A stretch of DNA of 64,000 nucleotides from Candidatus Heimdallarchaeota archaeon (lineage in GTDB: Archaea > Asgardarchaeota > Heimdallarchaeia > JABLTI01): contig JAHLVW010000059.1 in NCBI GenBank assembly GCA_019058275.1, positions 1 through 64,000 of the forward strand, in the 5' to 3' direction. Shown here piece by piece: positions 8,158 through 57,856 of this stretch. Position 1 is the stretch's first letter, and each line of letters starts with the position of its first letter. Position numbers and translations under genes: made by a program. Below the pieces are notes generated by a model. The model did no database searches. It was not told the origin of the DNA and saw only the letters and a program-made list of their open reading frames with translations.

Positions 8158-9772
8158 ATGCCCCGAAAAGAGAACCTACTCATCAAAAGCTACCAATTCA
8201 AGTTGCCAAAAGACGAACGTTTGGTTGGTTTCCAAGAACTCACAATAACAGCAGCGAAAAAACTACTCGAAAAACTCTGGTCAAAAGAATGGCTCTTGAA
8301 ACTTGGAACGGGTGACCTCAAAGCCTACAAGATCATCAACGAAGTACAAGTAGAACTAGAAGGCATTTACTTCCCATCTAGAGTTTGAAGGGGAATAGCA
8401 GAATGGGCAGGACGAATAATTAGAGGGCAATACAAACGTTTCTGTTGCTTTAAAGACTGCCTTGAAATAATCAATTGGTTGGGTGAAACATCGAGTAAAG
8501 CAAAATTAGTAGCTGCAGTAATGAAACATTGCCGAGAGACAATAAAAACAAAGAAAGGCAAAAGGACCTATGCACGATACAAGAAAATCATGGTGGAGCA
8601 AACAATAACGATGATTACTAAATGGCTGAAGCAATTGCCTAATATCTTTGAGCTGTTCGCTTACACTGATTTCGTGAAACCAAAAATAAAACGATTCGCT
8701 TTTCCTTTTGGACCAGATGAGGGGAACGCAATACAATACTTCTCTAACAAGGAAAAAGTCCACATTAAAATGAAGCTACCAACTTGTACAAAGCCAAGAA
8801 GCAGAAAAGACTGGGAGTGGATAGAGCAAGAACTAACTACCCCAACAAAAATACGAGCAAAAATAGAGCTAGCTTTATCACTGCAACCTAAAAATCCGAC
8901 CCTGAGAAATCAAAAGCTCAAAGGAGGACTAACCCATTTCTTCCTCCAGTTTCCATGGGAATACCCAAAAACAAGAAAAAAAGAAGAGAATGGTCAAGTA
9001 TTAGCAGTTGACCTTGGCCTGAAAAAAGTCGCGACAATAGTTATATTCGAGAACGGCAAACAAATCTCACATCCGATCACAATCAAGCTCAAAGGCTCGC
9101 AGTATCGCCACGTCGAACGGATTTATAATCAAATCGTTGGTATTCAAAAGCAGCTTGCAAAAGAAAAGAAAGGTAAGCAAACAAAGAGGAGTAAGAATAA
9201 AAGAAGAGGAAAGAAGAAGGCTCTACCAAAAGAGAAATCGTCTGGGAGAGGAATTAGCACATAATTCGACAAGTATCTTGATACTGTTAGCTCTCGAGTG
9301 GTCTTGCTCGAAAATAGTCATAGAAGATCTTCGCTCGTTCAAACCACCAAGAGGTAGGAGAAGCTGGTCAAGAAGACTCTCACAATGGCTGAGAGGAAGA
9401 ATAGCATTCCTTCTAGAATACAAGTGCAAAGAAGCAGGACTAACGCTTTTAAAAGTCTGCCCATGGAATACTTCAAGTCATTGCCCACGCTGCACAGCAA
9501 AGGGAGTGAAAGTTAAGGGACCAAACAATTTGGTCGCTGATAAGAAAGGTCGCTGGTTCCACTGCCCAGAATGCGGTTTTACAGCAGATCGCGACTATAT
9601 CGCAGCTGTGAATATTTACCGAGCAAGCTTTATCGATTATAAAAAAATTAAATGTCTCAAAGACACCAGTCCCGTGCCCTATATGGACCCGGGAACCCTC
9701 TGCTCAACTGTTCCTAGCGGGGGACTAGAGATGAACCATAACGGACTCGTTATGGTAACTGGGAATAGATAA
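8158..9772 (+). pseudogene. tnpB: broken TnpB RNA-guided nuclease of an IS200/IS605-type element
   Basis: Three pieces make one TnpB. Frame one runs from ATG 8158 to an in-frame TGA at 8386-8388, then continues in the same frame (RGIAEWAGRIIRGQYKRF) to 9264. A +1 shift around 9195-9225 moves to the frame that ends at 9772. The RuvC catalytic acids survive: VLAVDLGLKK (motif I), KIVIEDLRSF (II) and DRDYIAAVNI (III), with zinc-finger pairs CPRC and CPEC between II and III. Two independent lesions mean it is very probably inactive unless the breaks are sequencing errors. No TnpA transposase is nearby, so the element would be non-autonomous. AT-rich repeats TAGCTATATA/TAGCTGTATATA at 8117-8141 may mark the left end or promoter. 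Confidence 0.9.
9668..9772 (+). ncRNA. candidate omegaRNA overlapping the tnpB 3' end
   Basis: The 3' end of tnpB is unusually GC-rich and foldable. AGTCCC (9668-9673) pairs with GGGACT (9721-9726), enclosing GGAAC (9692-9696) paired with GTTCC (9710-9714). A perfect 8-bp hairpin CCATAACG-GACT-CGTTATGG lies at 9736-9755, close to the tnpB stop. TnpB guide RNAs are known to derive from the 3' end of tnpB and the element's right end, so position and structure both fit. The guide would be the sequence downstream of about 9770. Confidence 0.5.
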
Positions 9773-10599: not shown

Positions 10600-10890
10600 A
10601 AGCTTCAAACCTAGTAAGATTGGATAGTTTTTCTTAAAATGGTTAATATTAAGGTGAGTACATAATACTTTCGATTATCTCTCTACTTGTAACTATTATT
10701 TTTGTTTAGAGAAGTTCTTCTCTTAATTGTCAGGTAAATATCAAATTAAAGATAAGACTTTAGTTAAGTCTATCAACAAACAGCTTAACTTCATGATAAA
10801 TTTGATTTATATAACATAACCTAAAATCATGAATTAAGTGTCATGATTTAAATCACCTTGTTTAGAACCAAAAAACTTGTCGAGGATTAT

Positions 10891-13800
10891 ATGGTTTTGA
10901 CAACTGAGGAAATACAAGAACATATCATTATCAAGGGTGCTAGACAACATAATCTTAAGAATGTCAACCTAGATATACCAAGGAATAAACTTGTGGTCTT
11001 AACAGGTGTATCTGGTTCTGGAAAATCTTCACTAGCGTTTGATACTATTTTTGCAGAAGGACAAAGAAGGTATATTGAATCTTTATCAGCATATGCTAGA
11101 CAATTTATGGCTCAAATGAGTAAACCAGATATTGATTCTATTGAAGGTTTATCACCAGCAGTTTCTATAAGTCAGAAAACAACCAGCTATAATCCGAGAA
11201 GTACAGTCGGAACTGTAACAGAAATTTATGATTTTATGAGAGTGTTATTTGCCAGAATAGGTATTCCTCATTGTCCTAAATGTAACATTGAGATTAAGGC
11301 TCAAACTGTAACTAATATAGTTCAACAAGTTTTGAAAGATTATTCAGGTATGGAAATCATGGTTTTATCACCCATTGTAAGAGATCGAAAAGGTGAATAC
11401 CGTAAAGAGCTCAAAGGGTTGCTTGAATCGGGTTACTCTCGAGCAAGAATCGATTTTGAAATAAAACGCTTAGATGAGATGAAAAGTGAAGAAATGGTTC
11501 TTTCACGATATTTCCGCCATACAATAGAGGCTGTTATTGATAGAATTAGTGTTGATGTAGAAGAAGAAGATCGAATCGCTGAATCAATTGAAACCGCAGT
11601 GACTCTTTCAGATGGATTAGTTATAATAACAACCTTAGAAGCTTCTCAGATAAAGAGACGTCTTACACAAGAGAAGAAGAAAACTGATGATAAAAATGAA
11701 GAGGAGTTAGAGGGAAAAATACTTGAAGAACAAATTGGTGAAATGTTATTCTCTATTCATTTAGCATGTCCTAAATGTGGACTAAGTTTTCCAAAATTAG
11801 AACCAAGAAACTTCTCGTTTAACTCAATACATGGTGCTTGTCCTGATTGTAAAGGACTTGGAACAACTATTGAAGTTGATCCAGAAATTCTAGTTGTAAG
11901 CAAGGAATTATCATTAGCTAATGGAGCGTTAGCAGATTATGATCCTAATACGAAACGATTTAGACTAGCAAATATGAGAATCAATAGGATTAAAGCTATA
12001 GCTGAGAAACTAGAATTTTCAATTGATACTCCTCTTAAAGAACTAACAGATCAACAATGGAATGATTTCTTTTATGGTCCGAAGAAACCAATAATGGTTA
12101 ATTATGAGTTCTCATGGTCGGATAAACGAGGGGGGAGAGGGAAAGGAACTGCAAAGCTAAAATTCTCAGGTTTAGGACCAATAATAATGAATCGTTTTAG
12201 GCGTACAAGCTCGCAATATATTCGAGATTTTATTCAGGAATTTAGCTCCCCTGTGAAATGTTCCAAATGTAATGGTTCAGGTTTAAAGGTTGAAAGTCGA
12301 TCAGTAGTTTTCAAAGGAAAAACTATTGCAGATTTAGCTGGTATGTCAATTACTGATTGCATAGATTTTGTAAATTCAATAAAGCTGTTTAAGAATGAGA
12401 AAAAGATTGCTGAAAATTTACTCAAAGAAATAACAATGAGACTAGAATTTCTCATCAATGTAGGATTACCTTATTTAACTTTAAGCAGAAGAGCAAACTC
12501 CTTATCAGGTGGCGAAAGTCAAAGAATAAGATTAGGGACACAAATTGGATCCAGTCTTGAAAACGTACTATATATTTTAGATGAACCAAGTATTGGATTA
12601 CACAACCGAGATAACTTGAAGCTCATAAAAACCCTTGAGAGCTTGAGAGATAAGGGAAATACTGTACTTGTTTCAGAGCATGATATTGATACAATGCTAG
12701 CTGCAGATTGGTTAATTGATATAGGACCAAAAGCAGGTAACTTTGGTGGAGAAATATTAACTGAAGGACCTCCAGAAATAATCGCTAAGCATAAGAAATC
12801 CATTACAGGGAAATATCTTTCAGGTAAAGCTAAAATTAAAACTCCAAGGAAAAGGAGAATTGGTAATGGCAAGATACTGAAAGTTTTAGGTGCTGCTGAA
12901 AACAACTTGAAAGCTATTGATGTGGAGTTTCCATTAGGACTTTTCATATGTGTTACAGGAGTAAGTGGTTCCGGTAAAAGCTCACTTGTTAGCGATGTAA
13001 TGTGGAAGACCCTTGCCAGAACCCTAAATAGAGCAAAAACTAAGCCTGGAAAACATGTGGGGATGGAAGGCACAGAGCATCTTGATAAGGTAATTGAAAT
13101 AGATCAATCACCAATAGGTTACACTCCAAGATCAGTTCCTGCGACATACACTAAAGTGTTAGATCATATAAGAGATTTTTATTCTGCATTACCCATATCC
13201 AAGGCAAGAGGGTTCAAGAAAGGTAGATTCTCTTTCAATACAAAATTAGGCAGATGTTCTGCTTGTAATGGTTTAGGATATAATAGAATAGAGATGCAAT
13301 TTTTACCTAATATCGAAGTTGAGTGTGAAATTTGTTTAGGGAAAAGATATAGTGCGGAAACTCTTGAGATTAAATATCACGATAAGAGCATTCACCAAGT
13401 ATTGGATATGACTGTTAATAATGCACTCGAATTCTTTAAGGATCATCCAAAAATCTCTACCATCCTAAAAACTATGCAAGAAGTTGGTCTAGGATATATT
13501 AAATTGGGGCAGTCCTCAACTACTTTATCAGGTGGTGAGGCACAACGAATTAAGATTTCTCGAGAGTTAAGTAAGAAAGCCACAGGAAAGACACTTTACA
13601 TTCTTGAAGAACCAACCGTAGGTTTACATTCATATGATGTGAATAATTTATTGGCTGTTCTGAATCGATTAGTAGATGCAGGAAATACAGTTGTTGTTGT
13701 TGAGCATAATTTAGATGTAATAAAGTGTGCAGATTGGATCATTGATCTTGGACCTGAGGGAGGAGAAGCAGGAGGGCAAGTAATAGCAACTGGCACACCA

Positions 13801-16779
13801 GAGAATTTAGTAAAGAATGATAACTCATACACGGGTATTGCTTTAAGAAAAGCCCTTACAGACAAATTAATTGTTGACCCAAGCACCATATCTTCGCGTG
13901 AAAAATCATTTGATAGTGTAAAGTCAAGAAACTCTATTAGTATAACTGGGGCAAGAAAGAACAACCTGAAAAATATCAATCTAAGTATACCTAAAAATAA
14001 GCTAATAGTTATAACAGGAATAAGTGGATCTGGTAAATCCTCACTAGCTCTTGATACCCTCTTTGCTGAAGGACAAAGAAGATTTATTGAATCATTATCA
14101 ACTTATGCTAGACAATTTCTAGGTACAATGGATACTACAAGTGTTGACAAGATTGAAGGATTGTCTCCAGCAATTGCTATAGGCCAGAAATCTGCAGGTA
14201 GAAACCCAAGATCAACTGTAGGTACAGTTACTGAAATTAATGATTATTTGAGATTATTATTTGCAACTGTTGGAATCGCTTATTGTCCAATTTGCAACAA
14301 GGACATAAGTCCTTTGACTTTACAAGAAATGGTAAAAAGAACTCTAAGCCTAGGTGAAGGAACTCGAATTAAGATTATTGCTCCATTGGTAAAGGAATCC
14401 CAAGGAAATTTCAAACCACTAATTAAGGAACTGATTAAGGAAGGTTTTACCCGAGTAATAATTGACAATAAGGATGAAGTTCTATTAGAAGAAATAACAT
14501 TTACAGGTAAAGGAAAAGCTGTTCTAGTTAAAGATAAACTAAATACAATAGAACTTGTTGTAGATCGTTTAGTGGTTGATAAAGATGATATTGGTCAATT
14601 ATATGATTCAATTGAGATTGCTTTGCATAAAGGTGAGGGAGTAGTTAGAATAAGTGCAAATGGAGATACTTTGTCCTTCAGTACAAGAAGAAAGTGTTTT
14701 GACTGTGGAGTAGAATTACCTGAAAAATTCACTCCAAAGATGTTTTCATTTAACACTCATGTAGGAGCATGTGACAAATGTTCAGGGTTAGGAGTGATCA
14801 AGTCAATAGATCCAAAATTATTCATAGCAGATACTAGCAAATCCATCAGGCAAGGAGCTATTGGACCAATTACTAAGAACAAAGTTGAAAGCAATTGGAT
14901 GGTATCATTGATTAAAAGTTTGGGAGATGCTTTTGGATTTACACTAGATACACCAATAAAGGACTTAACTGAGGAACAATATCAAATTCTATTTTACGGT
15001 TCAGATAAGAAATTCAAGCAAGTAAGAGATGTTAAGAGAAGAAATTATGCTTATACCTATGAGAGAGAAAGAGAGTTTCGAGGATTAATACCCATTTATG
15101 AAGGATGGTTATCTAAAACAACATCCTATTGGTGGCTTAATTGGATGGAAAAATTCGTCCGAGTTCAAGAATGTTCTAGTTGCCATGGTACAAGGTTAAA
15201 GCCAGAGTTACTAGCAATTCGTGTAGGTGGCTTAAACATTGATGAAATGACAAAGTGCTCTATCGCTGAAGCTTACAATTTCTTCGGTAATCTATCTTTT
15301 GGAGGAGCGGATCAGATTATAGCTGAAGGATTAATTGAGGAAGTACTAGATAGACTCAAGTTTCTTATTGATGTTGGACTTGATTATCTCACATTGAATA
15401 GGGAAGCTCGTACTCTCGCTGGTGGAGAAGCCCAAAGAATTAGATTAGCAAATCAGATTGGGAATAAACTCGTTGGTGTGTTATATGTTTTGGATGAACC
15501 AAGTATAGGATTACATCCAAGAGATAATCAAAGATTGATTAATACTCTAACTGAGTTGCGAGATTTAGGAAACTCTGTTATTGTAATTGAACATGACGAA
15601 GCAACAATTAGAAGTGCAGACCATATAATAGATTTAGGACCAGGTGCTGGAGTAAATGGAGGAAACATTGTTGCTCAAGGTACAATAGAAGAAATTATGG
15701 GAAGTACAAATTCAATAACTGGAAAATATCTTAGTGGAAAGGAAAACATACCAATTCCTAAGAAAAGAAGAAAAGGTCAAGAATTTTTAACTATAAAAGG
15801 AGTTAGACAAAATAACCTTAGAAGTATAACAGCAAAATTCCCACTTGGTGTCTTTAATTGTGTTACTGGTGTAAGTGGTTCTGGTAAAAGTTCACTGGTA
15901 ATAGAAACATTGTATCGTGCTTTAGCAAAAACCTATCATAGATCAAAAGCAGAAGTAGGAAAATATGATTCAATAGATGGTTTGGAAAGTCTTGACAAAG
16001 TTATTATGATTAATCAGAATCCAATTGGTCGAACACCAAGATCTAATCCAGCGACCTATACTGGTTTGTTTGATCATATAAGAGACCTATTTGCTAAACT
16101 ACCTGAAGCAAAGATGAGGGGGTTCACAAATTCACGCTTTTCATATAATAGCTCTCGAGGGAGATGCCAAATTTGTCATGGCCGTGGAACAAAAGAGATA
16201 GAGATGCTGTTCTTAAGCAATGTTGAGATTATTTGTGAAGAATGTTATGGAAGAAGATACAATCGAGAAACACTTCGAGTGAAATTTAAAGGGAAAAGCA
16301 TTGCAGATGTTCTAGAGATGACAATTGAGGATGCAATGCCATTCTTTGAAAACCAACCAAAGATTCTCAAGATTTTAGAAGTGATGGATGAAGTAGGACT
16401 TGGATATTTACAACTCGGACAATCAGCAACGACATTATCAGGAGGAGAGGCTCAAAGAGTTAAGTTAGCCTCTGAGTTATGCCGACCTCAAACAAAGAAA
16501 ACTTTGTATATTTTAGATGAACCAACTGTAGGTTTATCAGCATATGATGTCCACAAATTATTGAACATTTTGAATAAATTAGTCAATGTTGGTAACACAG
16601 TAATAATTATTGAACACAACCTTGATGTAGTGAAAAGTGCAGATTGGATCATTGATCTTGGACCTGAGGGAGGAGACAAGGGTGGACAAGTTGTTGCTAC
16701 TGGAACACCTGAACAGATAAAAAGTAATGCAAAATCAATAACAGGGCAATATCTAAATGATTATTTGCAACTAAAATAG
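10891..16779 (+). CDS. uvrA: tandem double-length UvrA excinuclease ATPase
   Basis: A 1962-residue protein made of two complete UvrA copies in one chain; normal UvrA is about 950 residues and works as a dimer. Copy 1 (about 1-1015) and copy 2 (about 1018-1962) each have two ABC modules with GxSGSGKSS P-loops (near 40, 690, 1043, 1660), UvrA zinc-finger pairs (for example CPKC, CSKC, CSAC/CEIC) and signature motifs. Odd residues: the second Walker B of copy 1 reads LEEP (905-908) instead of LDEP, and the first signature of copy 2 reads LAGGE (1509-1513) instead of LSGGE. ATG at 10891 follows GAGG; an upstream TTG at 10858 is less likely. It acts in nucleotide excision repair damage recognition with UvrB and UvrC, which are not in this window. 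The gene is of bacterial origin in archaea. Confidence 0.95.
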
Positions 16780-19689: not shown

Positions 19690-21726
19690 TTAACTCTTTT
19701 CTACAATTAACGGTAAACAAAAATCAATGATGTATTCATGGTTGCAGTTATTGCAATTATAAATAGCTTTTGCTTTTTCACATTTTAATCCTGATTCTTT
19801 CTTAAGAGTTATAATATAATTACCATCGCAATTTTGACATTTTTCAGGTATTACTAGTGCAACCTTTTCATTGGATCCTATTTCAAACAGCTTGAAATTA
19901 AAACTGCTAATATCATAAAATTTCAATTCATTTAGTAGGTCTTCGAAATATTGCATGCCTTTTTTACTTCTAGTCTCAGCTAATTCTCTGCCGCTTTTTG
20001 TCATCATGCTTTTTGGTGCAGTTAATGTATAGGTCAATTCTCTGCTTAAGCTTCTTATTATTGCACTAATTAGATTTACTCCTCTCAAAGTTAGTTTTCT
20101 AAAGAAACTTGCAATCCCTAAAGGACCTAGTTTGTCAAGTCGATCAGCATCATGAACGATTTTACAATTTATATTACATTCCAATTTATCATTGTATAAT
20201 GCAGTAATTGTTGATTTAACAGCTTCAATTTCCTCACGAGAAAAATTTTCTCTTAGAAGAATTTTTTCAGCTTCTGTAGCAGAATGTTCTTCTTCAGCTA
20301 TTTCATCTTGATGATATTTGCCAAAAACAAATTTACCAGCATCATGCATTATCGCTGCAATTGTAGGTATAAGCGGATCTATGCCTTCCTGTATAGCTAA
20401 TTTGTAAGCAATTTTTCCTACTCGTTGGGAATGATCCCATAAGAAATTTGATGTAAATTGAGGTGAAGATTCATTGAATTCCTCCTCAGTTTTTTGTATT
20501 AATTTTTTAGCTTTTTCTAGAAATCTGGGAGCTCGTTGATCAATAAGTAAATCAAAATTATGTTTTGTATAAACCTTCTTCTCTAATTTCATACTTTGCT
20601 TTAAAGCTGATATTTTATTTGAAAATTCCTTTTGGGTTGTATGATTAACATACTTTGAAATTAGATAAGCATCTGAGAAAGAATGAAGCTCTAAAAAATT
20701 AATTCCTTTGGTATTCCAATATTTTGCTTCTTTTACAAAGACATCGATGCAATTGTTTACCAATTGAGAATGTAGTTTTTTCATTACACTATCATTTATG
20801 AGTGCTGTTGATGGAAATGATTCAATAATACCATACAGTAAAATTCCTGAATGAAAATACATGCAGGATTTTGATAATTCATCAAACAATCTCATTATTG
20901 TTTTCAAGTTTTTGGAAGATGGTGCTAAAAACAAGTTTTGTCGTACATGTTCAATTAATTTTACTAGTTCAGTTTCATTTTGTTTGCTTTCAAGAGTAAA
21001 TGATTTTGAAGAATCAAAATAACCATTAGTTAGATTTGAGTTGTTGGAATTTACTGCAGCTAAAGCTTTTCTATCATTAATGCTTGTAAACAAACTACTT
21101 GTGATTTTCTCATTTTTCTTTGAAATTACTGCAAACTTTATCTTTGAAACAGCTCTATGAAAGTCATCAGCTCTACTTCTTTTTGTATGGATTAATAATT
21201 GAGAATGAATAAGCAAATCGTGCTTATTAAAAGCAAATACAAGAGGTTCTATTTTACCTGAGGAGAAATATGGTACAACAATAGAGTTTTCCTCTAAAAA
21301 TCCAAGTAGCTCCTCTAATAATTTTGCATTTAGTAAAGGCATGTCAACAGGTGTTACTATTACCTTATTGTTTGATATATGGTCTAATGCAGAAGCGATC
21401 CCAAGAGTGGGACCTGAACAGAAGTATCTATGATTGTCTTTTCTAATCTTGATTTTTCGTTTTACTTCATCAGATAAGGTATCTATCATTTTAGTATAAA
21501 GATGGAATCTACTACTATCATTTACCATTATAATTATTTCATCACAAATTTCTTTCAATGTATTAATTGTCTTAAGAAGAAAAGGTTTACCTGTGTTATC
21601 ATTAACGAGTGCCTTATCTTGCCAAGGTTCATTCTTAACTTGGAAGCGATTACTATATCCACCAGAAAGAATTAAGCCAGTAACAGCATTTGGAGATGGT
21701 TTTTGGTGGATCATTTTGTTCATCAT
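19690..21726 (-). CDS. three-part fusion: MobA-like nucleotidyltransferase, HD phosphohydrolase, zinc ribbon
   Basis: 678 residues. Residues about 15-200 carry a MobA/MobA-like NTP-transferase fold (GLILSGGYSNRF, the signature loop, and VTPVDMPLL for the metal-binding Asp). Residues about 425-560 form an HD domain: WDHSQR, IMHDAGK, EEEHS and HDADRLDKLG supply the metal ligands. The last 80 residues have CQNC and CNNC pairs, a zinc ribbon. The middle (210-410) is helical and unassigned. Single-domain proteins are normally separate, so the fusion hints at a pathway that both transfers and hydrolyses a nucleotide-linked molecule. It stands alone between small genes. Confidence 0.85.
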   Translation of the reverse strand: MMNKMIHQKPSPNAVTGLILSGGYSNRFQVKNEPWQDKALVNDNTGKPFLLKTINTLKEICDEIIIMVNDSSRFHLYTKMIDTLSDEVKRKIKIRKDNHRYFCSGPTLGIASALDHISNNKVIVTPVDMPLLNAKLLEELLGFLEENSIVVPYFSSGKIEPLVFAFNKHDLLIHSQLLIHTKRSRADDFHRAVSKIKFAVISKKNEKITSSLFTSINDRKALAAVNSNNSNLTNGYFDSSKSFTLESKQNETELVKLIEHVRQNLFLAPSSKNLKTIMRLFDELSKSCMYFHSGILLYGIIESFPSTALINDSVMKKLHSQLVNNCIDVFVKEAKYWNTKGINFLELHSFSDAYLISKYVNHTTQKEFSNKISALKQSMKLEKKVYTKHNFDLLIDQRAPRFLEKAKKLIQKTEEEFNESSPQFTSNFLWDHSQRVGKIAYKLAIQEGIDPLIPTIAAIMHDAGKFVFGKYHQDEIAEEEHSATEAEKILLRENFSREEIEAVKSTITALYNDKLECNINCKIVHDADRLDKLGPLGIASFFRKLTLRGVNLISAIIRSLSRELTYTLTAPKSMMTKSGRELAETRSKKGMQYFEDLLNELKFYDISSFNFKLFEIGSNEKVALVIPEKCQNCDGNYIITLKKESGLKCEKAKAIYNCNNCNHEYIIDFCLPLIVEKS

Positions 21727-37245: not shown

Positions 37246-38136
37246 ATGTTAAAATGTCTTGTAGTTGGTGGAGCAGGATTTATTGGTTCAAATCTTGTAG
37301 AAAAATTGGTTGAAAACAAACATGATGTTGTCGTTATTGATAATTTATTCTTTGGAACAAAAGACAATCTAAAAGCTGTAGAAGATAAAATACAATTTTA
37401 CCAAACCGATCTCACTAAAGCTCATAAGAATTCATTATTCCAAGATAAGAAGTTTGATTTTGTTTTTCTTATGGGAAACTACTCTTCAGCACCAATGTTT
37501 TATACGGACACTCGAGATCGAATCGATGAAACACTAAAGGATTTTCTTTACGCATTAGAATTAGCAAAGGACAATAAAGCTAAATTCATTTACGCATCAT
37601 CTTCCAGCATCCAAGGACCAAGAACATATTATTCAGGCATTAGAGAAACCTATGAAATTTTAGCTTCAATGTACTATGTAGAGACCGGATTAAATAGCAT
37701 TGGATTTAGATTTTTCAGTATTTATGGTGGAGACAAGTACCATGAAACACACAAGACAAAATATGCCAATGTGATAAGTCAGTTTTATTGGAAATTCAAA
37801 GAAGGGAAGAATTTTGAGATCTTTGGCGATGGGTCACAATCAAGAGATTTCATTCATGTACTAGATGTTGTTGAAGCAACGGTCAAAGCTATGGAATATG
37901 ATAAACCAGGTGCCTTTGTGTTTGAAGTTGGTACTGAAATTGATCATTCTTTTAATGATATATTTCAAATGCTTACAAAGGTAATGAAACTTGATTTTAA
38001 ACAGATTTATATTGAAAATCCTATCAAGAATTACGTACAAAAAACATTATCAACTGAAAGCAAAGAAACAATGAAAGAGCTAAACTGGAAACCAAAGATA
38101 AGTCTCAAAGATGGGATTTCAATGATGGTAGACTAA
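37246..38136 (+). CDS. NAD-dependent sugar-nucleotide epimerase/dehydratase (extended SDR)
   Basis: 296 residues from ATG 37246; GGTGAT sits 3 bases upstream, so the longer reading from 37177 is rejected. GGAGFIGSNLVEKL is the Rossmann dinucleotide motif, SSSSIQG carries the catalytic Ser/Thr, and the YYSGIRETYE segment is in the place of the YxxxK pair: the Tyr-x3-Lys is not exact here, which deserves checking. RFFSIYGG and FGDGSQSRDFIHV are typical of UDP-glucose epimerase relatives. It probably makes sugar nucleotides for surface glycans. It is convergent with mch, overlapping 4 bases at the stops. Confidence 0.85.
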   Translation: MLKCLVVGGAGFIGSNLVEKLVENKHDVVVIDNLFFGTKDNLKAVEDKIQFYQTDLTKAHKNSLFQDKKFDFVFLMGNYSSAPMFYTDTRDRIDETLKDFLYALELAKDNKAKFIYASSSSIQGPRTYYSGIRETYEILASMYYVETGLNSIGFRFFSIYGGDKYHETHKTKYANVISQFYWKFKEGKNFEIFGDGSQSRDFIHVLDVVEATVKAMEYDKPGAFVFEVGTEIDHSFNDIFQMLTKVMKLDFKQIYIENPIKNYVQKTLSTESKETMKELNWKPKISLKDGISMMVD

Positions 38137-39116
38137 GTTTTTAATGAGCTCTTTTTTAGCATCTCAATATTTATTTTGCCAGCTGTAAGTAATTTACCCG
38201 TTCTGAGATTATTTACTGTAAGTTTTGCAGGTGCAAAAAGAGCGGGATCTATTTTATAGAAATCACCTTTTACCTCTTTAACAACATCATAAAATAATGA
38301 ACCATAACTGGAGGAAGAAGAGGAGGCTGCTTGATTTATGAATTCGGTTAGTTCATCTTCATTCTTGTAGTCTACTTGTAGATATACATCAGCACCGTAA
38401 ATTAGCATATCATTAGTTCGACCCAACATGAGATCTGATTTTCTTGTTGAAACTGGAGCTATTGGAGCTGTTCCGCAAGCAGAAACAATAGAAGTAACGT
38501 CCATACCCAAGTCAAATAATTTGTGAATTGCAGTTTCAACAGATCTGCCAGAAACCTGTGTTGATCCTGCGACACTGGTAGTTGGTGTAATAATTATGCA
38601 TAACCCATCGAGTTTAATTTTACATTTTTCAGCAATATAGTTCATAATTGATTCAGGTGGATATTGATTTGTTTCCAAAACTATTACTGTTTCATCATGA
38701 GTTTCATGAATTTGAATTTTTTCAAAAATATGCTTAGGTTTCTTTGCTAGAATTCTTGCAGGACCACTTGCCATTGCATGGTAGTTATCCTTATTTATTG
38801 ACCAGCCAGCAAATTGAGAAGCCATTGTTGATTCTATTGGAAAATCAGTTACTACGGTAATTGTTGGGAAAACTAAATTTTCATCATAGTTTTTTAGACC
38901 GAGTGAAACCTCTGATAAACCACCCATGCATACTTGAGTGATATACTCACCAGCTAGAAATCCACCAACAGCATTTAGTCCAAGATCGAAGATGGTTGGC
39001 CCAAGATCGAGTTCATTCATAACACCTCTAAGTAATTCTTCCATCTCCAACATTTCATCGAAAAGATCTACTACAGCTTTGTTTATGTTGGTTTCTTTCT
39101 GCTTTTTATTAGACAT
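38133..39116 (-). CDS. mch: methenyl-tetrahydromethanopterin cyclohydrolase
   Basis: About 327 residues from ATG 39116 with GGGTGAT upstream. NAVGGFLAGEYITQVCMGGL, YHAMASGPARILA and SACGTAPIAPVS are family landmarks. Mch interconverts methenyl- and formyl-H4MPT in C1 metabolism of methanogens, methylotrophs and several other archaea. It follows ftr by 26 bases, forming a DUF4234-ftr-mch transcript. A Ser run near residue 270 (about six Ser) is an oddity. Confidence 0.95.
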   Translation of the reverse strand: MSNKKQKETNINKAVVDLFDEMLEMEELLRGVMNELDLGPTIFDLGLNAVGGFLAGEYITQVCMGGLSEVSLGLKNYDENLVFPTITVVTDFPIESTMASQFAGWSINKDNYHAMASGPARILAKKPKHIFEKIQIHETHDETVIVLETNQYPPESIMNYIAEKCKIKLDGLCIIITPTTSVAGSTQVSGRSVETAIHKLFDLGMDVTSIVSACGTAPIAPVSTRKSDLMLGRTNDMLIYGADVYLQVDYKNEDELTEFINQAASSSSSSYGSLFYDVVKEVKGDFYKIDPALFAPAKLTVNNLRTGKLLTAGKINIEMLKKSSLKT

Positions 39117-39142
39117 AAGTATCACCCATTTAGTATAACCAA

Positions 39143-40039
39143 TTAGTTTTTGATAAGATCTTTAAGGTTAATTTTTACACTACCCAATTCACCATTGAAA
39201 TTTGAGCTGGTAATTTGGAGCATATGTTTGTTATCTTTTAGTGTAGTAATTGCTTCACTCATAGCTTTTCTTAATTCATTCTCAGAAACAGCATTTATTA
39301 CAATTTCATAAACACACTTTGCATTTTTTGGTAATAAACTATCATCTACAATACCAACAAGTGAAGGACAGAATTGATGATTTGATGATTCATTTAAGAA
39401 TGAATATTTTGAGCCAATTTTTGATCCTGATCTACAAATACCCGATGGAAAGGAAGTAATCGCTTTTGCAGATGATTCATGAATTGCTTTTACTGCAGCT
39501 CTTGCAGCAGCTAAAGTATCCTTTTCAGATGTTCCAATAATAACAATTAAACCTCCAGCAACTCCCTTCGCAAAATTAAAGGTTTCTTCAATATGAAAAA
39601 GTCCATCCATTACAGGAATTTCCCACAAATCTCGATTGTATTTCTTAATCTTCTTTTGATGACCATCACCAAAATATGAAATCAGTTTTCCAATTAGTTC
39701 ACTTTTTGGACCTTCTTCCAGCATGTTAAATACTCGAGTAGTAGGTGCAGTCATGGCACATTGTGAAATTCGTGCAAGTATTTCATCTTTCATCTTTTTA
39801 CTTCTTCGAGTCCAGATTTGTATAAGAACACCAGGTCTCCCATCAGGCGTTTGATCAGCAAGCATTATTTTCTCTATCCCAGCTTCAGCAGAACACAATA
39901 TTATACTTGTAGCAAAACCAACTGTGCTTCTTGCAGCAGCTAAAGCAAGCTCCTCATCAATAGCAGTTATAAGTATCCTTGAATACCACATTTCAAAACA
40001 TTCTGAAAATGTATCCTTTACCTCGACCATTTCAACCAT
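39143..40039 (-). CDS. ftr: formylmethanofuran:tetrahydromethanopterin formyltransferase
   Basis: About 298 residues. VKDTFSECFEMWYSRILITA at the start and CSAEAGIE, RPGVLIQIWTR, and SFPSGICRSGSKIGSKY match Ftr. It transfers formyl between methanofuran and H4MPT. The start is at 40039 (overlapping the previous stop) or ATG 40030; the family's short N-terminus (Met, a few residues, then DTF) favours these over the 40123 start. With mch it forms the formyl branch of the H4MPT pathway. Formylmethanofuran dehydrogenase is not in this window. Confidence 0.95.
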   Translation of the reverse strand: MVEMVEVKDTFSECFEMWYSRILITAIDEELALAAARSTVGFATSIILCSAEAGIEKIMLADQTPDGRPGVLIQIWTRRSKKMKDEILARISQCAMTAPTTRVFNMLEEGPKSELIGKLISYFGDGHQKKIKKYNRDLWEIPVMDGLFHIEETFNFAKGVAGGLIVIIGTSEKDTLAAARAAVKAIHESSAKAITSFPSGICRSGSKIGSKYSFLNESSNHQFCPSLVGIVDDSLLPKNAKCVYEIVINAVSENELRKAMSEAITTLKDNKHMLQITSSNFNGELGSVKINLKDLIKN

Positions 40040-40487
40040 CTCGTTTTTTTCTTCTTTTTCTTTTTGCGTGTTTCTTATGGGCCAATATGTGATCATTAAA
40101 TGCCTTTTGCCATCGATGTTCATGAATTATAGGTAGAACTCCCAATGTACAAATACCAAAGACCAGAAAAACAACAACAGCCTCGTATGCAACAGTACAA
40201 TTTTCTTTACCACGAATATTGGATGTAGCTATATGTTCATGCAATAATTGATATTTAACGTAAATCGGATAAATAGGAAACAGGATCAAAAAAATAATCA
40301 TAGTTGGAGGATTAATCTTAGTAGGATAAGATTCTGCTTCTACTTCAAAAGCTCTTTTGAAATGCTCATCTAAATCTCTGAACAACCAAAAAAGATAGAA
40401 GAAATAGTAAATGCCAAATGTCAGTAGAGAAAAGAAAACCACTCTACCATATTTCCTTATTGAACCATAACTTTGGATATTAATCAT
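40032..40487 (-). CDS. small membrane protein of DUF4234 type
   Basis: About 151 residues from ATG 40487, with GGTAGAT upstream. The N-terminal segment SIRKYGRVVFFSLLTFGIYYF with following FWLFRDLDEHF is the DUF4234 signature. Further hydrophobic segments lie near 60-80 and 105-125, and the C-terminus is strongly basic (KKHAKRKRRKKR). The stop overlaps the ftr start region, so it is translationally linked to ftr-mch. Function unknown. Confidence 0.75.
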   Translation of the reverse strand: MINIQSYGSIRKYGRVVFFSLLTFGIYYFFYLFWLFRDLDEHFKRAFEVEAESYPTKINPPTMIIFLILFPIYPIYVKYQLLHEHIATSNIRGKENCTVAYEAVVVFLVFGICTLGVLPIIHEHRWQKAFNDHILAHKKHAKRKRRKKRDG

Positions 40488-40573
40488 AATATCTACCAAC
40501 ATTTATCGTTAACATATATAATTAAAGAAAAAAGTATGTGAATCTTTTTCCTTGATTTACTATTTTTTTAATT

Positions 40574-41308
40574 CTATTTTAGCATTTCAGTTGTTTTAAG
40601 ACTCTTCCAAGCTAATGCTTCACCATTTTTAATTCGATTGAATTCAGGGATATGTCTTAGAACTAATACTAGCATGCCTAGAAATGCATAAAGTAAGATA
40701 AATTGCCAACCCATTCCATCCATGAAATATGCATGTGGCCAGAAAGCTCCAGGTAAATTAAATCTGAAAGAGGTACTCTCTGTAAATAGATCTATCAGAT
40801 ACCAGAATGGTGTTACAAATGCTGATGCCCAACATGCTCCGATACCTGAAAATCCACTTAAACAGATTAGAATGAACATCATAATTATCCAGAAGAAGGC
40901 AGTTGGCCAATAGAAGAAAAACAGTAAACCTACGTATGTCCCCAATCCCTTTCCTCCTTGGAATTTCAAGTAAGGCATCCAACAATGACCAGCTACTGCA
41001 GCTATAGCAGTTAAAATGACGTAATACTCACCAAAAATATCTGGATCTCCAGACAAAGGTACAATGAGATACTCTACAATAGATGCTGCAAACATTCCTT
41101 TTACAATATCAACTGAGAATGTAATGGCACCCCAAGGCCATAGACCAGCAGCTCGGATGGTGTTTCTGGTGCTAACAGAACCAGATCCAAAATTTCGTGG
41201 ATCAATTCCAGCAACAGTCTTAGACACAATATATGCAGTGGGAAAGCCTCCAATAAGCAATCCAATAATAGGTGAAATAATAAATGGCCAAATATTCGCG
41301 AATGACAA
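40574..41308 (-). CDS. PlsY-like glycerol-3-phosphate acyltransferase
   Basis: 244 residues with about six membrane segments. PlsY motifs: FGSGSVSTRNTIRAAG (motif 1, normally GSGNIGxTN), and GHCWMPYLKFQGGKGLGTY (motif 2, HxxPxxxxFxGGKG). Motif 3 (normally GIxxRHxxNI) appears as LVLRHIPEFNRI. Bacterial PlsY transfers acyl from acyl-phosphate to G3P in ester-lipid synthesis, which archaea normally lack. TTG start 41308 follows AGTGAT. A second, broken copy lies at 56223-56937. Whether it acylates sn-glycerol-3-phosphate or another acceptor is unknown. Confidence 0.85.
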   Translation of the reverse strand: MSFANIWPFIISPIIGLLIGGFPTAYIVSKTVAGIDPRNFGSGSVSTRNTIRAAGLWPWGAITFSVDIVKGMFAASIVEYLIVPLSGDPDIFGEYYVILTAIAAVAGHCWMPYLKFQGGKGLGTYVGLLFFFYWPTAFFWIIMMFILICLSGFSGIGACWASAFVTPFWYLIDLFTESTSFRFNLPGAFWPHAYFMDGMGWQFILLYAFLGMLVLVLRHIPEFNRIKNGEALAWKSLKTTEMLK

Positions 41309-41402: not shown

Positions 41403-42101
41403 TTAGACCAAAATTATTTGGTCCTTCTCTAACTGAATTAAGCCACTTCTTTCAAGCACAAGTATTCGTTCTTTCAATGTATTTTCAGATAAATTAAGAA
41501 CTAATGCCAGATCATTGATGGTTAAATCTCCACCTCGAGATGTTAGTGATTGAATGATTCGTTGATCTATTCGTTGAGGAAGAAGCTCATATGAAATCGT
41601 TCTTATTTTACGTCTAATATTGGAATATGTTGCTTCAGCAATGGATTTAGCAATATTGACCTTATTCAACTCCTTTCCGATTTTTTTCAGCAAGTCACTA
41701 TATAAAGAGATTTTTTCTTTGGAGTTTGGTGATTTTGATAGTTTATTGCATTCAGAAACTATTTTTCCTAGTTCCGGGAATTCTTTTGGTGTTTGAATCT
41801 CAATTCTCGGAACATCGAATAAACCAACATCAAACATCTCAGGAGATATTTGTACCTCCACTCGTACTGCTCGAGCAATTTGATAGTAACGTCTGGGTGC
41901 ACCTTGTCCTGCATCTTTAAAATCAGATTCCAATAATCCTGACTCTTCCAAAAGCTGTAGATGACGAAAAATCGCTTGTTGACCCAATTCAAGATTATAA
42001 GCTAACTGTGTAAGATACATAGGTTCTGATGCTAACATAGAAAGAATTTTGCGTCTAGTTTCGCTTTTCAAAGCGAGAAAAATCTTATTAGTGTCTGACA
42101 T
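41403..42101 (-). CDS. ArsR-type winged-helix regulator with C-terminal second HTH
   Basis: 232 residues. The N-terminal ArsR-like wHTH reads ALKSETRRKILSMLASEPM, YLTQLAYNLELGQQAIFRHLQ and SGLLES, with the wing at GAPRRYYQI. The C-terminal 60 residues contain a second HTH-like segment (LTINDLALVLNLSENTLKERI). It follows cdc48 by 47 bases on the same strand, after hsp20-cdc48. This recalls the hsr1-hsp20-cdc48 operon of Archaeoglobus, so it may be the heat-shock regulator that binds the palindrome at 45062-45082. That link is inference. Confidence 0.8.
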   Translation of the reverse strand: MSDTNKIFLALKSETRRKILSMLASEPMYLTQLAYNLELGQQAIFRHLQLLEESGLLESDFKDAGQGAPRRYYQIARAVRVEVQISPEMFDVGLFDVPRIEIQTPKEFPELGKIVSECNKLSKSPNSKEKISLYSDLLKKIGKELNKVNIAKSIAEATYSNIRRKIRTISYELLPQRIDQRIIQSLTSRGGDLTINDLALVLNLSENTLKERILVLERSGLIQLEKDQIILV

Positions 42102-42148: not shown

Positions 42149-44389
42149 TTAAATGTAAGAAATTCCTCCTTCTTTGAACCTATCTGAGATTCCACGATAT
42201 TTCTTCATGTCTTCTGAAGAGCTTTTGTGGATTTTGTTTAGAGCTTCTTCAAACAAACGATGAGTTATTTTGAATTCTTTTGATTTTAATTTCTCTAATG
42301 CGCCTTCGCTTGTTTTTGCTTTACCAATGAATTCTCTTATAGCAAGCATGCCTGCTTCCTTTGTAATTGCAGCTATATCAGCTCCTGTTAAACCATCAGT
42401 CATTTTAGCTAATTCACCCAGGTTAACATTTGTAGCAAGGGGCATACTTCGTGTGTGGATATTGAATATTACCTTGCGTGCTTTTAAGTTAGGTAAATCA
42501 ATGGAAATGTATCTATCAGTTCTTCCTGGACGTAATATTGCTGGGTCGATTATATCTGGACGATTTGAAGCCATGATGACAACAACATTCTTGAGTTTGG
42601 AAAGACCATCAATTTCTGTTAGTATTTGACTAACGACACGTTCTGTAACATTACTGTCATTAGCTCCACCTCTCGTAGGTGTGATACTTTCAACTTCATC
42701 CATAAATATGATACAAGGTGATGCTTGGCGTGCCTTTCTAAACAATTCACGAATGGCTTTCTCAGATTCTCCAACCCATTTACTCATAACTTCTGGTCCT
42801 TTAATACTAATGAAATTAGCTTCACTTTCAGATGCAACTGCTTTTGCCAGTAATGTTTTACCAGTTCCTGGTGGACCGTAAATTAAAATTCCTTTAGGTG
42901 GGTCAATACCTGCTTCTTCAAAAACTTCAGGATATTTTAAAGGCCACTCTATTGCTTCTCTTAATTCCTGGATAGCAGAATCTAATCCGCCAATTTCATC
43001 CCATTTAACATCTGGACTTTCTATGAAAACCTCTCGCATAGCAGAGGGTTCTACCATTGCTAAAGCATTTTCAAAATCAGATTGATTGACTTCAATTTCT
43101 TGGAGTATTTCTGGTGGTACAGTTTCTTCTTGCCAATCAATTTTCGGTAAAATTCTTCTCAAAGAACTCATTGCTGCTTCTTTAACTAAAGTAGCAAGAT
43201 CTGCACCAACGAAGCCATGAGTCACTTTTGCCATATTTGGAAGTTCAACATCTTCTACTAGAGGCATACCTCGAGTATGAATATGTAAGATATCTAATCT
43301 TCCCTGTGAATCAGGAACTCCAATCTCAATTTCACGGTCAAATCGACCTCCTCGTCTGAGAGCTGGATCAAGTGAATTTGGTCTATTAGTAGCAGCAATA
43401 ACAACTACCTGACCTCTGCTTTCGAGTCCGTCCATAAGTGCTAATAATTGAGCTACGACTCTTCGTTCAACTTCACCTGTTACTTCAGATCTTTTGGGTG
43501 CGATGGCATCAATTTCATCAATGAAAACAATTGATGGAGCATTATCTTCAGCTTCCTTGAAAACTCCTCGTATGTTTGCTTCACTTTCGCCATAAAACTT
43601 GGACATAATTTCGGGACCACTTAAGTGAATGAAATGAGCATCAGTTTCATTGGCGACTGCTTTTGCAAGCATTGTTTTACCGGTTCCAGGTGGTCCATAA
43701 ATAAGCAACCCTTTTGGAGCTTCAACTCCAAGCTTTTCAAAAATTTCAGGATATCGTAAAGGTAATTCAATCATTTCACGAAGCTTCTGAATAACATCCT
43801 CTAAACCACCAATATCCTCATAGCTAATTTGAGCTATTTTTCCATCTTCAACAGCAACTGGAGTTGAACGTAAATCAATTTTGGTATTTGCAGATACAAC
43901 TACGGTATTAAGCTGCTTAGGACTTACTCGAGCAACTTTGAAGACAATCTGATTTCCACCAAGAATTTGAATTCTTATTTGATCGCCAACAGAAACTGGT
44001 CGACCATTTAAAATTTGTAAAAGAAACTTACTATCTAGCTCTCCTCGAATAGCTTGAGTTGGAGCAACAATAACTTTAGTGCCCATAGGAGGTTTTATCT
44101 TTTTAATTATTACAAATTCGTCTAAACGCACACCAGAATTTAATCTAATAGTGCCATCTATCCTGATTATTCCTTTTTTCTCATCTTCTGGATAACCAGG
44201 CCAAACTTTTGCAGCAGTTCTTGTTTTACCGATAATTTCAATAATATCTCCTGCAGTTAAATCAAACTGTTTCATAACAGCATGACCAATTCTAGCTAAT
44301 CCTTTCCCTACATCACGATATTGTGAGTCGGATACACGTAAACGTATAGTATTATCAACACTACTGCCTTTACTGTCAATTGTAGACAT
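42149..44389 (-). CDS. Cdc48/VCP AAA+ ATPase
   Basis: 746 residues. The N domain (about 1-190) is followed by two AAA modules. D1: GPPGTGKT near 234, [13 protein letters not shown], and the arginine finger region [12 protein letters not shown]2: GPPGTGKT near 507, with Walker B FMDEVES, and the conserved RPGRTDRYI. It extracts and unfolds proteins, feeding the proteasome. It ends in Ser-Tyr-Ile, close to but not matching the HbYX rule. It follows hsp20 by 45 bases on the same strand, a heat-shock pairing known in archaea. Confidence 0.96.
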
Positions 44390-55034: not shown

Positions 55035-56111
55035 CTATTCCTCTGATTTTTCAACGATCTTTTTTCTTGTTAGTTTTTCTTTTAATTCATCCCTTTTTGA
55101 GATTATTCCAGCCTTTATTTCATCTGATTTATCATAAAGCGAATCTTTCAGAGCTTTTGAGGTTTCGCTAATGTTTACTTTTATTCGCTCTTTTGCTTTT
55201 AATCCTTCTTCAGGAACTACTGCTTCTAGGAAATTAATTGCACTAGAATGAACGTCACAAGGGTGAGAATATTTCTCAGAATTTGGTTTAAACCCATCAG
55301 TCCTTAACCAATCTTTTGCTTTTTTATAAGCTTCATTAATTAAATAATTCGATTTCGAAAAATCATGTGGACGAACATCAATACATTCTGGTGGAGGTAC
55401 TATCACCAACTCAACTTTATTTTTGTAGATCTGGATATCAGTTGCGAGCTGTCGATTAAGGAGATAAATGAAGCTTCGAATAAGTATTTCCATAACATTT
55501 TTTGGGTCTTGATCAGCAGAAGGAACACCAATTGGAAAAATTACCACACATTCAGCACCTAATTTTACAGCTGTTGAGATTGGTGTATTATTAACTAATG
55601 CTCCATCAACCATTGCACGATCTTCCATATGTTGTGGTGGGAATACTCCGGGTATTCCAACACTTGCCATCAAAGCTTCTATCAAAAGTCCCTTATCAAA
55701 AACGACTTCTTCGCTACATTTGATGTCAGTACTAATAATATATAATGGAAGTTTTGTTTCTTCTATTCGCTCAAATGGAATCTTCTCGGTAATTAGCTTG
55801 CGTAAATTCTTAGGCGACACTAAATAATGACCAAAAGTAGAAAGACTTACAACAGGAGTGATTGGAGATGGTGTAAAAACGTTCCATACTTTGATATTAC
55901 GCCAAATCTAATCGATGACTTCTACACCTTCAAAAGTTGGATTGTAAGCATACATTGCACTAATTAAACTACCTACTAATGTTCCTAAAACTAAATCTGT
56001 TTGTATTTTTTGTTCTACTAAAGCCTTTAAAGCACCTAATTCCACTGCACCTAAACTAGCTCCTCCTGAAAAAACAAAAGCAGTCTTTGGGTTATTCGAA
56101 CGTTCTTTCAT
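55035..56111 (-). pseudogene. broken patatin-like phospholipase
   Basis: ATG 56111 starts a patatin domain with the oxyanion loop FSGGASLGAVELGAL, but the nucleophile elbow reads GTLVGS instead of GTSVGS: Ser is replaced by Leu (TTA against TCA). An in-frame TAG at 55908-55910 (after VEVID, before IWRNIKVW) then breaks the frame, which continues unshifted to 55035 and contains the catalytic Asp in MVDGALVNN. The gene lost both its nucleophile and its continuity, so it is not a working phospholipase. It is the first of three adjacent broken genes. Confidence 0.88.
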
Positions 56112-56222: not shown

Positions 56223-56937
56223 TCATTTCATTACATCTTTAGATGAAAATTGAGACCAAACTTTGGCTTTACCAGCTTTTATCTTTTTGAACTCAGGTAA
56301 ATATCTAAGCAGAATGATAACTAAGATTCCAAATCCATAAAGAATTGTAAAGGGTATACCAAAACCAGAATTATCCAAAAGATATGGATGAGGTATGGGC
56401 TGTATAATCTGAGAGCTAGGACCAATCAAATCAATTATGAAGAACAAGGGGGAAATGAATGAAACACCCCAAACTGATCCAAATCCTGCGTAACCGGATA
56501 GTAGGCTCAGTAGTGTTATTAGAATTGGGAAGATGAAAGGACCAAAGGGCCAATAGAAAAATAATAAAGTACCACCCATTGTAGCTAATCCTTTTCCACC
56601 TTTAAAACCTAAATAAGGCATCCAACAATGACTAGCAACAGCCAGCTAAAGCTGTTTAAACAACTAGATAATCTATGTATGGATGATCATAAAAAAGTGC
56701 AAATTCAACTATTACACAAGCAATAGCACCTTTCATAAAATCAATTGCACCATTTAATAATCCCCATGGCCAAAAACCTGCAGCTCGGATAACATTTCTA
56801 GTACTAACAGAACCCGATCCAAATTCACGTGGATCAATTTTCTTAACAGCTTTACAGATAATAAATGCAGTTGGAAAGCCACCTAAAACTATACCAATTA
56901 ATGGTGCTACAAAAAATTGCCAAACGACTGTTGCCAT
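56223..56937 (-). pseudogene. broken second PlsY-like acyltransferase
   Basis: Homologous to the intact gene at 40574-41308. The first half (from 56937) holds FGSGSVSTRNVIRAAG and reaches an in-frame TAA at 56656-56658. A frame change a few codons later, just before SHCWMPYLGFKGGKGLATM, leads into the second half (to 56223). Two lesions, one stop and one frameshift, in about 25 bases. The motif-2 histidine is kept (SHCWMP), so decay seems recent. It lies between the broken patatin and broken DegV genes. Confidence 0.88.
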
Positions 56938-56957: not shown

Positions 56958-57856
56958 TTAAAGTTGTTTTTTTGCATCTAGTAACCAATTTTTGTCAAAT
57001 GATCCAATATATCCGAAAGTTAAGGCTTTTTTACCAACAAAATTAGCAACAATTGCTCCTGTTTCTTGAATTATAATTTTCATTTTTCTAGAATTATTTT
57101 CTTCAAGATGCTTTGCTATAATTTCTGCTGCTTCAGGCCAACGACTATGTCCAATGAAAATATGATTAGCATCATCGATTAGATTATCAAGAACGTGACA
57201 ACCATATTTCTTCATTTGATTAATGATGTGTTGATCATTTGCACGAATTTTGTCTTGAATTGAAACTTGCCCATCAACAAATTAAACAATGGGTTTTATT
57301 TTGAAGAAATCCACTAGATATTTCTTTGTTTTTGGTACCCTGCCAGTTCGCACTAAATTTTCGAGTGTAAACATAATCCCTGCGTAGTTAACATGCTCTA
57401 TCCATTCTTTGATTTTTATATTTAATTCTTCAAATGAACATCCATTTTCTATTAGCAATAAAGATTCTAAAACTAAAGCAGCTAAAGCAACACCGGTTAC
57501 CTTGGAATCATAAATTCGGATATTCTTATCTGGAAAATTTTGATTAATAACAATTTGTGAGCTAGGAGCAATAGGTGAAAGATGTTTTGAGAGAAATATT
57601 CCAATTACAGAATCGGCTTCTTGTAAAGCTGTCTCAAAAATTTATGAATTAAACCAGGTGAAGGTGTTGATGTTGTTGGGAGCTCTGATTCAGCTCGGGT
57701 ATAATATTCATCTAATGATAATTCACCAGTTACACCGCAAGAAGAAAACACTTTGTCTGGAAAAATAACTTTAGTAGGAATAATAGTAAGGTTAAATTTT
57801 TCTATATATTCTTTTGGCAAATCACAAGTATCATCCGTTACGATAGCTATTGTCAT
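56958..57856 (-). pseudogene. broken DegV-family fatty-acid-binding protein
   Basis: The 5' part (57856) begins IAIVTDDTCDLPKEYIEKF, a DegV start. Around 57640 the frame shifts (LIHKF then KKPIL instead of an in-frame continuation), and the next frame encodes SVIGIFLSKHLSPIAPSSQ and VTGVALAALVLE. An in-frame TAA at about 57283-57285 (KPIV-stop-FVDGQVS) breaks it again before the C-terminal part ends at 56958. DegV proteins bind fatty acids for a kinase-dependent incorporation route in bacteria. Two lesions make this inactive. Confidence 0.85.

Follow-up and report, generated by a model that had tools for sequence, protein, structure and literature searches.

A divergent PlsY paralog and a candidate PlsX-free fatty-acid-kinase route in a genus of Heimdallarchaeia

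We analyzed 64,000 nucleotides of Candidatus Heimdallarchaeota archaeon (assembly GCA_019058275.1, contig JAHLVW010000059.1, positions 1 to 64,000), a stretch called here the window. It encodes an intact but divergent PlsY-family protein, PlsY1, and another contig of the same genome carries a fatty-acid-kinase (Fak) operon with a canonical PlsY. With modest confidence, we favor the reading that this genus possesses a PlsX-free Fak-PlsY system and that PlsY1 is a paralog with a changed acceptor pocket. The host order, JABLTI01 in GTDB, is the former Gerdarchaeota and lies inside Heimdallarchaeia (PMC9723677).

PlsY1 and its acceptor pocket

A sequence-only reading had proposed a bacterial-type PlsY acyltransferase in this archaeon, and membership of the family is borne out by both profile and predicted structure. 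The open reading frame of PlsY1 is intact and matches PF02660 at 5.9e-32 (111.4 bits, against a gathering score of 24.1). Its AlphaFold model (pLDDT 76.7) matches the PlsY crystal structures 5xj5-5xj8 and no others (E<=4e-5, probability 1.0, TM 0.65-0.71 by target). With TIGR00023, the PlsY equivalog model, PlsY1 scores 96 bits, under the cutoff of 137.2. The gene is under purifying selection (dN/dS 0.06-0.24). Residues are numbered as in Aquifex aeolicus PlsY (aaPlsY, PDB 5xj5), and their roles are taken from PMC5700162.

40574..41308, minus strand: PlsY1, predicted divergent PlsY-family membrane acyltransferase, 244 aa (PF02660, structure, tree, dN/dS)
41162..41188, minus strand: PlsY1 motif 1, GSGSVSTRN; clamp Ser retained, T41 of aaPlsY replaced by Arg (alignment to 5xj5)
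40946..40987, minus strand: PlsY1 motif 2, from His108 through GGKG; keeps the clamp Lys and the residues of the acyl-phosphate hole (GGKG loop, H92 equivalent) (alignment)
40619..40657, minus strand: PlsY1 motif 3, RHIPEFNRIKNGE; H177 equivalent retained, clamp N180 replaced by Glu (alignment)

Alignment to 5xj5 showed that the acyl-phosphate site is complete in PlsY1. The G3P phosphate clamp, formed by S35, R45, K104, and N180, is not: PlsY1 keeps the Ser, Arg, and Lys but has Glu in place of N180. Of the motifs reported earlier from the letters alone, GGKG and both motif histidines (equivalents of H92 and H177) are present; the conserved Asn of motif 3 is missing. Relative to aaPlsY, PlsY1 carries the substitutions N180E, T41R, and N37S, the first two of which are fixed throughout the PlsY1 clade (8 genomes). 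Across the aligned PlsY copies, acyl-donor residues are nearly invariant and acceptor residues are variable. In aaPlsY, the N180D mutation costs more than 95% of activity (PMC5700162). Because of N180E and T41R, the acceptor of PlsY1 is probably not plain G3P, and a standard G3P acyltransferase activity appears doubtful.

Locus, descent, and the PlsY paralogs

The gene order Hsp20-Cdc48-ArsR-PlsY1-DUF4234-Ftr-Mch is common to 8 genomes (our own and 7 congeners), as far as the contigs extend, and the locus contains no Fak gene. The neighbors conserved around PlsY1, assigned by profile match and synteny, are as follows.

38133..39125, minus strand: Mch, methenyl-H4MPT cyclohydrolase
39143..40123, minus strand: Ftr, formylmethanofuran:H4MPT formyltransferase (archaeal C1 pathway)
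40032..40502, minus strand: DUF4234 membrane protein, downstream of PlsY1
41403..42101, minus strand: ArsR-type regulator with two HTH
42149..44389, minus strand: Cdc48 family AAA ATPase

In a tree of 95 rows, from which a misframed Azospirillum row was omitted, PlsY1 of the 8 genomes forms one clade (100/98) whose sister is the PlsY2 orthologs, followed by a type represented on contig C115. These three group with second copies of families f2-f4 (96/94). The canonical operon PlsYs are separate from the PlsY1-type copies, and the bacterial rows are placed with weak support (72/89). A profile and motif scan of 84,980 species returned 20 loci of the PlsY1 type, all in Heimdallarchaeota/Asgard MAGs. 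The tree, the conserved gene order, and the dN/dS values together indicate old vertical inheritance with lineage-specific duplication. "Repeated acquisition or duplication" had been suggested beforehand; duplication stands, whereas repeated acquisition from bacteria is unsupported by the tree, where the non-canonical copies of the genus lie among Asgard paralogs, and by the scan, where the PlsY1 type is confined to the lineage.

The same reading had described PlsY1 as one of two copies, the second being broken. Profile search of the contigs instead gave 12 PlsY loci in this genome, listed as 13 matches since the pieces of the decayed copy are reported separately; the copy on contig C34 has an internal stop as well. 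PlsY matches range from 4 to 13 per genome in the genus, and at least one was found in 88 of the 228 genomes of the phylum. The decay of the second copy in the window, PlsY2, was confirmed, and its flanking DegV and patatin genes are broken too. This region is a decayed DegV-PlsY-patatin cluster:

56223..56937, minus strand: PlsY2, decayed by stops and a frameshift; intact orthologs in four congeners
56958..57856, minus strand: DegV/FakB gene, decayed into three open pieces; an intact DegV adjoins the orthologous PlsY in congener G057
55035..56111, minus strand: patatin-like phospholipase, decayed, broken by a stop

Stop-codon recoding is an unlikely explanation for the broken copies: TAA and TAG both interrupt them, frames shift, and Pyl and Sec recoding have reportedly been lost in Heimdallarchaeia (PMC9723677).

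Other paralogs replace K104 by Q, R, or N and lack H177 or N180. On contig C109 of our genome (L075), a divergent PlsY with GGN in motif 2 is flanked by a 3-beta-HSD/epimerase-family gene and a choline-kinase/APH-type kinase gene. Family f19 has PlsY-family proteins of about 400 aa with an unannotated C-terminal half (L139, L140, L141, L142, L143, L146, L147), which stand in tandem in some genomes, mostly have GGQ for GGK, and occur in genomes without FakA. Elsewhere in the window, on the plus strand, a 1973-aa ORF (10858-16779) reads as two complete UvrA proteins in tandem fusion, and a TnpB-like transposase gene spread over two overlapping frames (8479-9772) is apparently a decayed insertion element. 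On the minus strand, the ORF at 19690-21726 resembles a fusion of a MobA-type nucleotidyltransferase with an HD domain.

The Fak operon and the lipid genes around it

Our genome and 5 congeners share a fakA-fakB-plsY operon with a canonical PlsY downstream. In our genome this PlsY lies on contig C69, passes TIGR00023 (155.7 bits, cutoff 137.2), and keeps the phosphate clamp in the alignment. FakA of the genus (313-330 aa) comprises a Dak2 domain and a middle domain and carries DGDTG as well as the catalytic Cys and His-x-His; it aligns to 7w7h at 1.4e-57, homology stops at the middle domain, and the C-terminal FakB-binding domain is lacking. FakA_NL has been reported to be active (PMC9136124). 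In 3 of 9 PlsY-bearing congeners FakA was undetected, and among Asgard genomes it is confined to this class (42 of 228). The operon FakB matches the FakB1 model at E 1.5e-38, under that model's cutoff, exceeds the cutoff of TIGR00762 (266.9 bits), and also matches FakB structures. The FakB of our own operon (C69, L070:8620-9490) is broken by a single in-frame stop and is intact in the near-identical G060.

FakB/DegV matches number 24 in our genome, fragments counted, and the conserved FakB Arg motif is present in 18 of the 20 full-length proteins checked. Of 59 loci, counted manually, 20 have a DegV gene no more than about 1.3 kb away from PlsY, against 1.0 expected. DegV was found in 48 of 49 class genomes with PlsY versus 1 of 10 without it.

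FakA, FakB/DegV, and the canonical PlsY are further genes for a bacterial-type ester-lipid route, of the sort the initial proposal set out to look for. The partners it named, PlsX, PlsC, and GpsA, were undetected in the genus, and Fak is the likely acyl-phosphate source instead. Profile searches found neither PlsX nor GpsA in any of 59 class genomes. PlsC was found in none of the 9 genomes of the genus and in none of families f1-f3, versus 25 of 26 genomes in f4-f7. It was undetected in 33 of the 36 genomes with at least 2 PlsY versus 1 of the 23 with fewer, an inverse pattern that may be the product of very few evolutionary events.

G1PDH, the archaeal hallmark lipid enzyme, catalyzes the entry step to archaeal G1P ether lipids. 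Of the 50 class members outside the genus, 48 have strong matches to it, while all 9 genomes of the genus gave weak matches alone, so that it counts as undetected there. Three of these weak Fe-ADH matches were tested as G1PDH candidates and rejected, as they fit alcohol-dehydrogenase models far better. Neither PF01884 nor a class-specific profile picked up GGGPS in any genome of the genus. This absence is not decisive, because related G1PDH-bearing families, such as f3, also mostly lack a detectable GGGPS. One f3 genome (G012 C45, L064) has a standard-type GGGP synthase (188 bits) that its relatives lack, through contamination or recent transfer; family f5 has very divergent GGGP synthases (L187, L188, L189), far under curated cutoffs, that keep YLEAGSG and GGGI. 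CarS (CDP-archaeol synthase) is retained in 9 of 9 genomes of the genus, our own copy scoring 163.3 against an equivalog cutoff of 148. The mixed membrane suggested at the outset is conjectural: G1PDH, its expected archaeal entry enzyme, is undetected in the genus, while CarS is retained. An FGGY kinase in G057 passes the XylB cutoff and not that of GlpK, and could be either a glycerol or a xylulose kinase. Scanning 1.56 Mb of G057 (~38%) with motifs of CDP-alcohol transferases, PlsC, and UbiA enzymes gave nothing convincing.

Proposed mechanism, alternatives, and known systems

From gene content, operon, motifs, phylogeny, synteny, and selection, we infer enzymatic activity, fatty-acid substrate, acceptor, and lipid product as follows. 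FakB (DegV) proteins would bind fatty acids, FakA would phosphorylate the bound fatty acids to acyl-phosphates, and membrane PlsY enzymes would use these to acylate their acceptors. Given the Fak operon, the 24 FakB/DegV matches, and the undetected PlsX, Fak acting on fatty acids is the probable source of the acyl-phosphate. The canonical C69 PlsY would probably make lysophosphatidate from glycerol phosphate, of either stereoisomer if it resembles the bacterial enzyme, which accepts both G3P and G1P (PMC13400652). PlsY1 probably uses acyl-phosphate to acylate a different acceptor, for which a lyso-phospholipid is the most plausible candidate, and would thereby replace the missing PlsC; a lyso-lipid acceptor is suggested by the inverse PlsC/PlsY pattern, behind which stand few lineages. 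Against the Fak-PlsY reading we count the equivalog score of PlsY1, its Fak-free locus, a FakA that lacks the C-terminal domain and went undetected in 3 congeners, the possibly very few events behind the PlsC/PlsY pattern, and the Loki-type relatives in FakA-free genomes.

PlsY1 might simply be an ordinary G3P (or G1P) acyltransferase that duplicates the role of the canonical copy. The retained clamp Ser, Arg, and Lys, the H177 equivalent, and the complete acyl-phosphate site would fit such an enzyme, as does the use of both glycerol phosphates by bacterial PlsY. We nevertheless consider it unlikely, as the whole 8-genome clade carries N180E and T41R, the change N180D nearly kills aaPlsY, PlsY1 falls short of TIGR00023, and a canonical copy is already at hand. 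We regard it as similarly improbable that PlsY1 acylates a non-phospholipid acceptor (a sugar phosphate, a polyprenyl phosphate, or a protein) and that the expansion serves acylated surface or secondary compounds. The altered clamp residues of other paralogs and the neighbors of the C109 copy point that way, but PlsY1 itself retains the phosphate-clamp Lys, Arg, and Ser and sits among housekeeping genes. Bacterial contigs in an archaeal bin could be suspected, as our bin is listed with 6.8% contamination. For PlsY1 this is ruled out by synteny and taxon restriction: archaeal core genes flank it in 8 genomes, and its type is confined to the lineage in the scan. PlsY also occurs in the single-contig class member G008, and we give contamination a negligible probability.

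Asgard PlsY has so far been an orphan, found without PlsX and with its route of fatty-acid activation unreported. On the Fak-PlsY reading, the fatty-acid-kinase operon would be the missing acyl donor source, in Heimdallarchaeia, the class of archaea regarded as nearest to eukaryotes. Ester lipids in the genus are plausible because G1PDH is undetectable there. Both points are open to tests on purified proteins that need no culture of the archaeon, so that bacterial-style lipids in such archaea are now directly testable. A bolder version, which we hold to be quite improbable, is that the genus has lost the standard G1P entry and builds its membrane glycerolipids partly or wholly from fatty acids via Fak and PlsY, divergent PlsY paralogs performing the PlsC-type second acylation from acyl-phosphate. 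If true, this archaeon would stand partly or wholly across the lipid divide.

That Asgard archaea have PlsY is already known: Coleman 2019 (PMC6431249) and Manoharan 2019 (PMC6737245) described homologs of PlsY and PlsC from Loki-, Thor-, and Heimdallarchaeota. Those were scattered PlsY and PlsC genes without an acyl-phosphate source, whereas here a Fak operon accompanies a dozen PlsY loci; Loki-type PlsY is also longer (~400 aa, against 244 aa for PlsY1) and occurs in FakA-free genomes. No PlsX was found in archaea, and archaeal PlsY and PlsC were judged unlikely to make membranes (Coleman 2019, PMC6431249). The literature searched, which covered few subscription journals, gave for Fak in Asgard archaea only one paper using Bacillus Fak as a tool. 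In that literature we found no mention of the Fak operon, of the expanded FakB and PlsY families, of the altered acceptor pocket, or of the missing G1PDH.

With the Firmicute Fak system, in which FakA and FakB feed PlsY, the archaeal genes share the catalytic N and L domains of FakA with Cys/His, a FakB family with the Arg motif, and linkage to PlsY; they differ in their archaeal host, the missing C-terminal domain of FakA, the 24 FakB/DegV matches in one genome, and a genus without detected PlsX and PlsC. PlsY1 shares with bacterial PlsY (Aquifex aeolicus, 5xj5; TIGR00023) the fold, the layout of motifs 1-3, the acyl-phosphate hole, the clamp Ser, Arg, and Lys, and the H177 equivalent. It differs in N180E, T41R, and N37S, in its length (244 versus ~200 aa), in its score under the equivalog cutoff, and in having no PlsX partner.
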